A program made the translations under genes and the position numbers. Under the pieces are notes generated by a model, which made no database searches, had not been told where the DNA came from, and worked only from the letters and a program-made list of their open reading frames with translations. Of a stretch of DNA of 64,000 nt, positions 19,229 to 23,235 are shown piece by piece; within the stretch, counting starts at the first letter, position 1, and the number at the start of each line of letters is the position of its first letter. Source of the stretch: Saccharomycopsis phalli (Eukaryota > Ascomycota > Saccharomycetes > Ascoideales > Saccharomycopsidaceae); contig CP073217.1 in assembly GCA_020342235.1 (NCBI GenBank), positions 1,302,001 to 1,366,000 on the forward strand, read 5' to 3'.

Positions 19229-19810
19229 ATGGCGAATACTATTACCCGGCCGAGTCGTGATAGCACTGACGGGATGAAAATGGAGGCTCCACCCATGAGT
19301 GAAGAGCCCATTGTATTTTTCGATGTATCGTTGGGGGTCAAGCCTATAGGCCGGGTGAAAATCAAACTCTTCAAGTCGATTGTTCCAAAGACTGCTGAAA
19401 ACTTTCGACAGTTTTGCACCGGGGAGTATAGAGAAAATCACATGCCGGTTGGCTACAAAGATAGTGAGTTTCATCGCGTGATAAAAGGAAAGCTAGTACA
19501 AGGGGGCGACTTTGTTTCAAATAACGGGCTTGGGTCCAAGTGTATTTACGGGTCCAAGTATTTTGAAGATGAAGGGTTCCAGCTACGCCACGAGTCAGGT
19601 ATGGTATCGATGGCCAATAGCGGGCCGAATACCAATGGATGTCAGTTTTTCATTTGTGTGCGGACGCTTGAGGAGCTTGATGGGAAACACGTAGTCTTTG
19701 GCCAAGTGGTGGAGGGAATGGATGTTGTAGGTATCATGTCCAAGGTTCGGTTGGACGACAACGGTCGGCCGGAATTGCCCCTCAGCATAACTGAAAGTGG
19801 TGAGTACTAG
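19229..19810 (+). CDS. Cyclophilin peptidyl-prolyl isomerase, PPIH-like
   Basis: 193 residues with one cyclophilin domain from IVFFDVSLGVKPIGRVKIKL. Catalytic Arg is in FHRVIKGK, with QGGDF, MANSGPNTNGCQFFI and LDGKHVVFGQVVEG. The layout and the end (LPLSITESGEY) resemble PPIH/USA-CyP, the cyclophilin of U4/U6 snRNPs that S. cerevisiae lacks. The Trp of cyclophilin A that binds cyclosporin (EWLDGKH) is Glu here (ELDGKH), so drug binding may be weak. The start is uncertain: the first ATG is 19229, but ATGs at 19274 and 19280 fit the family length better and would leave the Reb1-type site at 19241 in the promoter. Splicing role is inferred. Confidence 0.9.
   Translation: MANTITRPSRDSTDGMKMEAPPMSEEPIVFFDVSLGVKPIGRVKIKLFKSIVPKTAENFRQFCTGEYRENHMPVGYKDSEFHRVIKGKLVQGGDFVSNNGLGSKCIYGSKYFEDEGFQLRHESGMVSMANSGPNTNGCQFFICVRTLEELDGKHVVFGQVVEGMDVVGIMSKVRLDDNGRPELPLSITESGEY
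19241..19248 (+). promoter_or_regulatory. Reb1-type site at the ISD11/cyclophilin boundary
   Basis: ATTACCCG lies 13 nt inside the cyclophilin frame if the first ATG is used, but in the promoter if translation starts at 19274. It therefore argues mildly for the downstream start. Confidence 0.4.
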
Positions 19811-20200: not shown

Positions 20201-21346
20201 ATGACCACCTTAGTAACTGCAAACAGCTATGGCGAGCCAACTTTAGCCAACCCAAAAGATTTAGTGTTTGAGAGTGTGATCGAAACCGATGGTTACTCGA
20301 GTGACAGCACTCCCACACCGCCGAGTGTCGTTGACTCGAGAATCGAAGACTACATTCTCATCAGAACTATTGGCATCGGATCCTTGGCTCGAGTTCACTT
20401 GGCCAAATCAAAGGTCAACGGCAACTTTTACGCAGTAAAGTCATTCAATAAAGAACTCGTGGTGGGCTATAAACAGTTGGGACATATACAAGATGAGATC
20501 TCGATCTTGAGAAAAGTGGATCACCCGATGGTTCTCTCCCTAGACTCTGTGACCCAGGATTCGAAATACTTGTTCTTGGTGTTGGAGTTTGTCGAAGGTG
20601 GGGACTTATTCACATTGATCTCGCGCAACACAAAAAACATTGGGTTCAAGCTCCAGCCGGCAGACGTCAAATTCTTTGCCGCCGAGATCTTCTTGGCCAT
20701 CGAGTACTTACATTCCTATAACATAATCCATAGAGATATAAATCCAGAAAATATTGCCATCGACGCCTATGGCCATGTCAAACTCATTGACTTTGGGCTT
20801 GCCAACCAATTACAAGGCAGCGATGGCTCAGCAAAGACATTTTGTGGCAAGCGAGACTACTTGGCTCCGGAGATAATCAAAGGATTGCCTTACAGCAAGG
20901 GGGTGGACTGGTGGTCGTTTGGTATAATTATTTTTGAAATGTTGTGCGGCTATCCACCATTTCATGATAAGATGGTCAAGCGGGTTTACGAGAAAATCGT
21001 GTCCTTGACATATAAATTCCCAAGCTTTATGGACGGCGAGAACCAGCTCAAAGATCTCTTGTGTGGCATATTCAGGGAAGATTCCAAGAGATTGACTGGT
21101 CCGCAAATTAAAGCTCATCAATGGACAGAAGGAATAAATTGGGACGACGTCCTCAACAAAACCCACTCTTCACGGATAAAGCCAGATATCCAACCAGGAA
21201 AGGGAGACACTCGAAACTTTGACAAATTTCCTGAAGACGATCTGTGTAAACAATATGGGTTATATGGTCCAGGTAAATATGACGAGTTATTTGACAATAT
21301 CGTGCATCCTTCTGTTTCTCATTCGGTCATAGAAATCAATTACTAG
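20201..21346 (+). CDS. Divergent PKA-catalytic-subunit-like AGC kinase, possibly atypical
   Basis: 381 residues. An N-terminal extension (1-50) is followed by a full AGC kinase fold. Seen: glycine loop GIGSLARVHL (58-67), VAIK Lys80, alpha-C Glu99, HRD 177-179, DFG 197-199, activation-loop Thr213, APE 222-224, DWWSFG and the PKA tail GDTRNFDKFPEDDL. Two departures stand out. The catalytic loop is HRDINPEN, so the lysine of HRDLKPEN is Asn181. The P+1 loop is CGKRDY instead of CGTPDY, putting Lys217 and Arg218 at invariant positions. It could be a fast-evolving TPK or a regulated pseudokinase. The longer frame begins at TTG, so the first ATG (MTTLVTANSYG) is used. It is convergent with TPA1, with 44 bp between stops. 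Confidence 0.88.
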   Translation: MTTLVTANSYGEPTLANPKDLVFESVIETDGYSSDSTPTPPSVVDSRIEDYILIRTIGIGSLARVHLAKSKVNGNFYAVKSFNKELVVGYKQLGHIQDEISILRKVDHPMVLSLDSVTQDSKYLFLVLEFVEGGDLFTLISRNTKNIGFKLQPADVKFFAAEIFLAIEYLHSYNIIHRDINPENIAIDAYGHVKLIDFGLANQLQGSDGSAKTFCGKRDYLAPEIIKGLPYSKGVDWWSFGIIIFEMLCGYPPFHDKMVKRVYEKIVSLTYKFPSFMDGENQLKDLLCGIFREDSKRLTGPQIKAHQWTEGINWDDVLNKTHSSRIKPDIQPGKGDTRNFDKFPEDDLCKQYGLYGPGKYDELFDNIVHPSVSHSVIEINY

Positions 21347-21390: not shown

Positions 21391-23235
21391 TCACTCTTCC
21401 TTTTCCTCTTTCTCTTCCTCCTCCTCTTCCTTCTCTCCCTTTACATCCCACTGGCAGCTGATATCCCATCTGCTTCCCTTGGCCAAGTAACTCACGTATT
21501 TTACAAATTTCAATACGGATGCATCCCTGAGAATTAAATTAAACGTATTCCAAGAAGCTTGTTGGTTGAGAAGCACAGAGTCATCGCTGTTGGAGTTTCT
21601 GTAGATCGCAGGGTCATCATTTTCGTCCATGGTCATACAAAGCTCGTATCCTCCAAATTCGCCCGACTCCCACCCTTTAGATGGGGTGAGGCAAAGTGTG
21701 CCTTCTAATACCGCCTCAACTGACTCAAATCTTGTATTTTCCTGCTCGTCTTTAAAACTTGTTTCCTGATTTGTGGCGAGTGTAAAATCTGACCCCGGTC
21801 TGAACCGACGGATCAACACCTGCTCTGATACAGGGATTAGGGAGGAAATGAGGATTAATAATTTTTTAAACTGGGTGCTTTTCAAAAAGATCGCCAACTC
21901 AGACAATTTCTTAATGGTCGAGTCGTTTGATTTCTCGGATAGCGATTGGTAGTCGTACATGGATGTGTCCACAGCACGTCTTTTTGAGGCCTCTTCTGGA
22001 GTCTCGCCTTCAAACTCCAAATTCTTGAGCTCCGGTTCAAGCGGCTTGCCGTCAATGTACAAGTATCTGCGCTTTACGCAGGACATGGCTGTCTTCCAAG
22101 GGAATCTCACGTCCTTGGACTGTCTAGGAACCCCTTCATCGACCTCTTTCTTTCGGATCAAGGTCTTTATACTGTCAGAAAACTCGTCGTTCAAAAAGTC
22201 TGAAATAGTAACGAGCGAGGAGCTCAAAAACTGATTGCTCAATTCCTTCAAGCGGTCTGGGCTCAATAGACTGGCATTCAAGTATCTTTGGAGGTAGGCG
22301 AAATCGTGCTTATCAAGAGCGAAATTCTTTAATTTTTCGTTGTTGGTATAGAACTCGGCCAATTTTTCAAACAAGCTATTATCAATTGAAACTCGGTCCT
22401 GCTTGGGGAAATCGTAGAGCTGGAACTCGGTTGATTCCAACTGCTGCAAAGTGCTTTGATTCTCAAACTTCTTTTGCTCACCAGGAATGTACCCTTCTTC
22501 TCCTTCTTGTGGGATATGAAACCAGCCCTGGATGGAGATCCGTTGCTTGTCCGCTTTGACTTCCTCTACGTCGTGGAAGCTGTAGCCTGGCTTGACCTCA
22601 AAAAAGGCATAGTCGTTAAATTGAGGCACAAACTTTTTCTGGTAGTCACTCTTTGGTACATTTGAGTAGTGAGCCCCAAAAAGCCGGAGGCCTCCTCCAT
22701 AATGGTCCTTCCACTTTTTGTCTGGGTCGGGCAAATACAAGATAAACGACACTCTTCGAGAGCCAATCACATCGTCATGCGTCAATAGATGGCACGACTT
22801 GTGATAGATGTTCAAGCTCATGTCATACTTGTTTGCACTTATTTTCCCTGCCTGGGTGACATGGCTGATAAAGTCTCTAAACTTTGGGCAATAGAGTGCG
22901 TTTCTCAATTTCAAAATGTTTGGCAACCGGCTGAGGTCTTTTTTGTCAAGACCATTGAGGTTGCGGAGGTCCCCTGACTGGAACACTTTGTAAATATCTG
23001 TTTCCTTTTCTGTAAAATGTATCGCGGACAAGAGTTCCAGTCTCACGTCTCTTAGTAGTTCATCGTTCACCAACCCGTTGATTGCACCCCATTTGTAGGG
23101 AGTTTGGTCGTCGATGCTCTTTTGGAGCTCCTCGGCAAACTCTGGTTTGAATATATCCTGATTGAGATAGCTGGAGTAGTCAATTGACTGTTTCTTCGGG
23201 TCTTTTTCGCTCTCCTGGTGGTTTTGTCGCTTCAT
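21391..23235 (-). CDS. TPA1: Tpa1 prolyl hydroxylase-like dioxygenase (OGFOD1 family)
   Basis: 614 residues with the two double-stranded beta-helix domains of Tpa1/Ofd1. The iron-binding triad is visible: H153-D-D155 in LLTHDDVIGSRRVSF and H221 in YSFHDVEEV; the 2-oxoglutarate-binding Arg is R232 (QRISIQGW). The catalytic domain is followed by the degenerate second domain. The C-terminus ends in a Glu/Lys run (about 17 residues). Tpa1 hydroxylates a proline of ribosomal protein uS12 and influences termination fidelity and mRNA decay. It is divergent from IST3, with 54 bp between start codons. Confidence 0.94.
   Translation of the reverse strand: MKRQNHQESEKDPKKQSIDYSSYLNQDIFKPEFAEELQKSIDDQTPYKWGAINGLVNDELLRDVRLELLSAIHFTEKETDIYKVFQSGDLRNLNGLDKKDLSRLPNILKLRNALYCPKFRDFISHVTQAGKISANKYDMSLNIYHKSCHLLTHDDVIGSRRVSFILYLPDPDKKWKDHYGGGLRLFGAHYSNVPKSDYQKKFVPQFNDYAFFEVKPGYSFHDVEEVKADKQRISIQGWFHIPQEGEEGYIPGEQKKFENQSTLQQLESTEFQLYDFPKQDRVSIDNSLFEKLAEFYTNNEKLKNFALDKHDFAYLQRYLNASLLSPDRLKELSNQFLSSSLVTISDFLNDEFSDSIKTLIRKKEVDEGVPRQSKDVRFPWKTAMSCVKRRYLYIDGKPLEPELKNLEFEGETPEEASKRRAVDTSMYDYQSLSEKSNDSTIKKLSELAIFLKSTQFKKLLILISSLIPVSEQVLIRRFRPGSDFTLATNQETSFKDEQENTRFESVEAVLEGTLCLTPSKGWESGEFGGYELCMTMDENDDPAIYRNSNSDDSVLLNQQASWNTFNLILRDASVLKFVKYVSYLAKGSRWDISCQWDVKGEKEEEEEEKEEKEE

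Follow-up and report, generated by a model that had tools for sequence, protein, structure and literature searches.

The window analysed here, a stretch of 64,000 nt from contig CP073217.1 of the yeast Saccharomycopsis phalli, carries on its + strand (nt 20201–21346) an ORF open without interruption from ATG to TAG and encoding 381 aa plus stop. The putative product, a divergent third TPK-like protein kinase to which we gave the working name TpkX, matches the Pkinase family of Pfam (PF00069) at 7e-65 and has Tpk1 of S. cerevisiae (1fot, E 6.9e-84) as top match in the PDB. From recognition of the sequences, its neighbours are what we take to be a cyclophilin gene (nt 19229–19810) on one side and, presumably, a TPA1-like prolyl hydroxylase gene on the - strand (nt 21391–23235) on the other. 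The host reads CTG as Ser, since the standard code puts Leu at conserved Ser positions of its own Tpk1 (GTGLFG, LFLLLRKS) and the Ser reading restores residues conserved with S. cerevisiae Tpk1. The single in-frame CTG of TpkX (nt 21242–21244), read as Ser, sits in the C-tail outside the motifs.

The protein kinase domain (aa 52–308, nt 20354–21124, + strand) was delimited by the Pfam match and comprises, on the same strand, the glycine-rich loop GIGSLA (aa 58–63, nt 20372–20389), the catalytic loop HRDINPEN (aa 177–184, nt 20729–20752), an intact DFG (aa 197–199, nt 20789–20797) and the P+1 loop residues Lys217-Arg218-Asp219 (nt 20849–20857). Downstream of the domain, alignment identified the PKA-type AGC C-tail motif FDKFPEDD (aa 340–347, nt 21218–21241, + strand), GDTRNFDKFPEDD aligning with GDTSQFDKYPEED. 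A structure prediction, for which 62 prokaryotic and viral-contig kinases served as alignment rows, gave pLDDT of at least 90 for 230 of the 381 residues and mostly above 90 in the modelled core of the domain; mean values were 97 in the block 181–190 and 84 in the block 211–220. The solved folds closest to the model were PKA structures at ≈38% identity, e.g., 4wb5, with 1.9 Å over 281 columns.

Alignment with mouse PKA and S. cerevisiae Tpk1 places Asn181 (AAT, nt 20741–20743) at PKA K168, Lys217 (AAG) at T201, Arg218 (CGA) at P202 and Asp219 (GAC) at E203, so that both substitutions described in an earlier note on this DNA, i.e., Asn for the catalytic-loop lysine and Lys-Arg for the Thr-Pro of the P+1 loop, are confirmed by codons and alignment. 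TpkX thus has HRDINPEN and GKRDY rather than the lysine of the TPK-type HRDLKPEN and GTP(E/D)Y. One wrong base could account for either change taken singly, but hardly for both together with Arg218, in a protein just 42% identical to the yeast TPKs.

The same note had held all other catalytic residues to be intact. This is correct for PKA K72, E91, D166, N171 and DFG (in TpkX K80, AAG; E99, GAG; D179, GAT; N184, AAT; D197-F198-G199), and T197, D184 and the APE Glu are retained as well. Indeed, with the VAIK Lys, the HRD Asp and the DFG Asp all in place, the losses typical of pseudokinases were not encountered, and TpkX fits an exchange pattern in which a non-Lys residue at 168 and Lys at 201 (N181 and K217) coexist with preserved D166, N171 and DFG. 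The claim omits, however, the replacement by Ala of the third glycine of the glycine-rich loop (G55A) and of a C-spine residue (L173A), K189N, a 3-residue insertion in the activation loop and the absence of the C-terminal FxxF hydrophobic motif of TPKs, the C-terminus of TpkX reading LFDNIVHPSVSHSVIEINY. PKA positions 196 and 213 are altered too; W196, K213, the C-spine and FxxF all have recognised roles in PKA. Among the acidic sites for the P-3/P-2 arginines, E170 and E230 are kept and E127 is changed to Asp; Y330 is changed to Phe. An apparent loss of R280, where MAFFT puts Leu, is probably a misalignment, as the phmmer alignment retains the Arg, one deletion ahead.

With TpkX as query, the complete genome (14.15 Mb in 8 contigs) gave 98 matches, of which 70 loci were read, 19 regions of weaker match staying outside the counts. 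Nearest were L002 and L003, both canonical TPKs that read YRDLKPEN and GTPDY, and the canonical TPK that the earlier note had proposed to look for elsewhere in the genome is therefore present in two copies. Position 168 could be read in 72 kinase ORF rows and was Lys in 71 of them, the sole exception being TpkX; position 201, readable in 72 rows, was occupied by Thr in 46, by Ser in 22 and by Ala, Cys, Asp and Lys in one each, the Lys being that of TpkX. TpkX is thus the only kinase read in its genome that lacks K168 and also the only one with Lys or Arg at 201, which argues against this state being due to chance. The Ala, Cys and Asp at 201 belong to three kinases (L067, L057 and L068) that have nonetheless kept K168. 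At another locus (L064, C2:1502800–1506500), a kinase is spread over different frames separated by stops, as in a pseudogene or an intron-bearing gene.

TpkX is 42% identical to each of its own TPKs and to S. cerevisiae Tpk1, compared with 51–52% between mouse PKA and the yeast TPKs and 79% between the host Tpk1 and S. cerevisiae Tpk1. It keeps 82 of the 130 residues common to four PKAs (Sch9 and Ypk of the same yeast keep 86 and 89, respectively), and it is changed at 22 of the 78 residues common to PKA, Sch9 and Ypk, a count that includes R280 probably through misalignment. The kinase domain is nonetheless nearer to PKA than to other AGC kinases, as indicated by the match with 1fot, by the TPKs of its own genome and by a tree of 24 kinases, where TpkX groups with the yeast TPKs as their sister (support 89/95, not starred), its branch measuring 1.04 and theirs 0.10–0.23. 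With PKA and the TPKs it shares the kinase domain and the C-tail FDKFPEDD; N168, K201-R202 and the further changes listed above set it apart from the TPKs. Two PKA catalytic subunits are described in C. albicans (excerpt of PMC6023519). The S. phalli genome also holds a Bcy1-like ORF (C3:445139–445735), with two cNMP domains in one 400-aa frame. No relative of the TpkX protein was found in the viral contigs and genome contigs searched, a collection containing no yeast genomes. Judged from its sequence, TpkX is a fast-evolving third paralogue of the PKA catalytic subunit in a yeast that reads CTG as Ser.

K168 is regarded as almost invariant among Ser/Thr kinases, and a kinase without it is readily taken for weak or dead. 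A link between positions 168 and 201 is provided by published contacts: S212 of MARK bonds D175 and K177, the PKA equivalents being T201, D166 and K168 (excerpt of PMC2604893), simulations of PKA show a K168–T201 contact (excerpt of PMC11196109) and a 201–168 contact in ordinary kinases is stated in general terms in PMC6213207. Relocation of a catalytic Lys within the active site is known from WNK kinases (excerpt of PMC1821047); these resemble TpkX in carrying the Lys at another place of the active site, but there the moved residue is K72 and not K168. In tyrosine kinases, JAK JH2 and ROP5B the replacement comes from the catalytic or the Gly-rich loop and in none of them from the P+1 loop, unlike what is proposed for TpkX. 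The open-access literature searched yielded no account of K168 being replaced by a Lys at 201.

Kinases were sampled without regard to position 201 by means of DNA patterns for the catalytic loop. The HRDxNPEN pattern, blind to residue 201, yielded 87 stretches in prokaryotic genomes and 6 in viral contigs, and 60 of the 93 resulting ORFs had the motif within a domain of at least 40 bits. The HRDxKP(E/D)N pattern retrieved at least 120 stretches from viral contigs, and HRDISPDN, run on the class to which a Blautia bin belongs (148 genomes), gave 5 loci in 2 genomes; the 3 viral-contig matches of a pattern for Ser at 168 contributed no kinase row. All rows were aligned to one profile, the forward set consisting of the kinases obtained by catalytic-loop patterns and of the yeast kinases, TpkX left out. 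One further locus (L105, GKSGY) was excluded because it has no APE motif.

Among distinct rows, Lys or Arg was found at 201 in 11 of 56 kinases lacking K168 and in none of 128 kinases with K168, the latter comprising 66 yeast, 57 viral-contig and 5 other kinases. With duplicates kept, the counts were 12/60 versus 0/139 (Fisher p 2e-7), and after thinning to dissimilar rows 6/30 versus 0/111 (p 6e-5). A closer control, made of K168 kinases from five bacterial genomes that also hold non-K168 loci, likewise showed no basic residue at 201 (0/22; L287–L316). The rows with basic 201 fall into three groups, i.e., Myxococcota (GKFAY), Firmicutes ((L/I)(K/R)xGY) and one Caldilineaceae kinase (GRRNY). 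The sample also contains Bacteroidota proteins with tandem kinase-like domains (L076, L078, L074 and relatives), the first of which has HRDxNPEN and no basic 201.

The reverse pattern, GKxxY(L/I/M/V/F)(S/A)PE, is blind to residue 168 and was run on 39 Polyangia genomes. It was present in all 39, with 704 matches (58 in one genome), and a reversed control pattern gave none. Thirty of these loci with Lys at 201, one per genome of 30 (examples in L332–L361 and L392–L421), were read, and residue 168 was Ser in 28 and Thr in 2. Kinases combining K201 with Ser or Thr at 168 thus appear, from these sequences, to be a very large myxobacterial class. In the myxobacterial HRD(V/I)(S/T/N)PxN kinases with GKxxY(S/A)PE both positions are exchanged as in TpkX, the very combination N168/K201 being found in two Sandaracinaceae and a Polyangia bin (L147, L151 and L141); unlike TpkX, they belong to a very large bacterial family with its own clade (98, starred). 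The same reverse approach on 121 Chloroflexota genomes retrieved 12 loci and no recognised kinase, with the translations of 5 of the 12 viewed and with a pattern that would miss L092. The sole string resembling a catalytic loop among those 12 loci, HQDVQRTN in L431, was taken as a chance occurrence.

A solved structure belongs to one of the swapped families. A Firmicutes kinase with K168S/T201K has PpkA (5hnv) as best solved match (E 5e-51), and the 5hnv chain itself reads HRDISLDN and LKPGFAPIEQY, i.e., Ser at 168 and Lys at 201. A tblastn search with PpkA gave 53 plasmid records, 18 of which were chosen for variety of organism, and 19 kinases were read from them. Within these, all 9 rows with K168 had Thr or Ser at 201, and 7 of the 9 rows with Ser or Ala at 168 had K201. 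The two exceptions are S168 kinases of a single record, L435; in one, an Arg occupies the position used by tyrosine kinases. On plasmid pAZKH of Azoarcus (L438), the loop reads HWNISPEQ, D166 and N171 being lost and Asn standing at 201, and this member is apparently a pseudokinase of the PpkA family. Another locus, L434, belongs to a type VI secretion cluster, its neighbours being tssK, tssM, tagF and a DotU gene. As to activity, PMC3953482 reports that D161A/N166A in Agrobacterium PpkA abolishes TssL phosphorylation, and PMC12607579 that PpkA kinase activity is required in Acidovorax; both proteins enter our comparison by these activity reports and not by sequence.

PpkA (5hnv) and the Firmicutes HRDISPDN kinases are like TpkX in having no K168, a Lys at 201 and the other catalytic residues preserved. 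They differ from it in being bacterial, in having mostly Ser or Ala rather than Asn at 168 and in a P+1 loop of the form (L/I/V)KxG(Y/F), against GKxDY in TpkX. The likeness is most simply explained as convergent, because TpkX lies elsewhere in the kinase tree, among AGC kinases.

A wider, deduplicated table, biased in that it includes loci fetched by similarity to swapped kinases, showed the same association. None of 187 rows with K168 (a set overlapping the 128 above) was basic at 201, and K201 accompanied Ser168 in 32/32 rows and Thr168 in 4/4, the table not including the two S168 exceptions of L435. With Asn at 168, 7 of 55 rows, TpkX included, were basic at 201, and the remaining 48 were not, 42 of these having Thr, Ser or Ala. 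In these rows, Ser or Thr at 168 is therefore tightly coupled to K201 and Asn only loosely; kinases with N168 can do without a basic residue at 201, as 48 of the 55 do.

For the tree, 127 thinned rows were used after removal of columns 168 and 201, and few of its deep branches are firm. Mapping the swapped label on it required 7 changes, at least 3 of them forced by starred branches and some possibly representing losses. The Myxococcota clade and the PpkA/Firmicutes clade are both starred (98 each), and each includes one non-K168 kinase without basic 201. L085 (N168, no K201) is placed beside PpkA, and L092, on a long branch, is of unsure placement. TpkX falls inside the AGC kinases (99, starred), at a distance from the swapped families of bacteria. 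With no more than 4 supported independent pairs, a sign test was not significant. In the aligned kinases, loss of K168 is coupled to gain of Lys or Arg at 201 in two clearly separate clades of bacteria, as well as in one Caldilineaceae kinase whose position in the tree is uncertain. The 168/201 exchange is thus a state that the kinase fold has adopted repeatedly, with both sites coupled, and TpkX looks like an independent case of it.

On these grounds we consider it somewhat probable that TpkX is a third PKA paralogue in which positions 168 and 201 have exchanged their roles, with Lys201 reaching back into the active site, some phosphotransfer retained and substrate preference altered. In such an enzyme, residue 168 would now be a small polar Asn and the positive charge would be carried by position 201; Lys201 would most likely extend back to the catalytic Asp and the γ-phosphate, and at least some phosphotransfer could be maintained via Lys217. 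The Lys-Arg pair of the P+1 loop would make TpkX prefer other substrates, given that in the PKA–phospholamban complex the second Arg of RRxS contacts Thr201 and Glu203 (excerpt of PMC8970585). The compensated relocation of the lysine that the earlier note had put forward is supported in part: the coupling in two bacterial clades, the solved PpkA member and the reported dependence of PpkA phosphorylation on catalytic residues speak for it, and the 48 of 55 N168 kinases without a basic 201, together with the other signs of relaxed constraint in TpkX, speak against. A broader proposal, which we hold tentatively as quite possible and somewhat short of probable, is that position 201 offers a second legal seat for the catalytic-loop Lys, reached convergently in the myxobacterial kinases, in the PpkA/Firmicutes kinases and in a yeast PKA paralogue, and that TpkX is active, swapped and endowed with a new substrate range.

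The first alternative, which we judge less probable though quite possible, is that TpkX is a pseudokinase that folds and may bind Mg-ATP without useful phosphotransfer, acting as a scaffold or competing with Tpk1 and Tpk2 for substrates or for Bcy1. The loss of K168, the replacement of T201-P202, the changes at L173 and G55 and the missing FxxF would all be accounted for, as would the greater distance of TpkX from the yeast TPKs (42% identity) than that of mouse PKA, and the genome already provides two canonical TPKs along with the Bcy1-like ORF; in addition, most sampled N168 kinases have no basic residue at 201. On the contrary, the HRD Asp, Asn171, DFG, the VAIK Lys, the αC Glu, T197 and APE are all retained in TpkX, and the bacterial kinases with Ser or Thr at 168 and K201 retain the remaining machinery too. 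As for a decoy of Bcy1, PKA positions 196 and 213 bind the regulatory subunit and, if this is right, their alteration in TpkX argues against such a role.

Still less probable is that both changes are hitchhiking or near-neutral under relaxed constraint, in a paralogue heading for loss. The long branch of TpkX, its many changes at conserved sites and the lost C-terminal hydrophobic motif would agree with this, but the ORF, 58% diverged from the TPKs, is intact over all its 381 codons, and the Mg-ATP residues are kept. Moreover, a drift to Lys or Arg at 201 along with the loss of K168 is unlikely, since no sampled kinase with K168 has a basic residue there, either in the 128 rows of the forward set or in the larger, overlapping set of 187. 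Finally, it is very improbable that Lys217-Arg218 reflects a specificity change alone (a basic P+1 loop for acidic substrates, with Asn168 merely tolerated and no relocation), an explanation in line with the 48 of 55 N168 rows lacking a basic 201 and with the contacts of Thr201 and Glu203 in the excerpt of PMC8970585, by which Lys-Arg should disfavour the PKA motif, but one that does not predict why basic 201 is seen together with Ser, Thr or Ala at 168, in more than one family, and in none of the kinases read with K168.

If the charge can indeed sit in the P+1 loop, as we favour for TpkX, kinases of this type, a large class in bacteria and at least one in eukaryotes, would be normal enzymes whose active site is permuted. 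The finding would parallel the relocation of K72 in WNK kinases, and the 168/201 pair would offer a simple double-mutant test of the role of that lysine.
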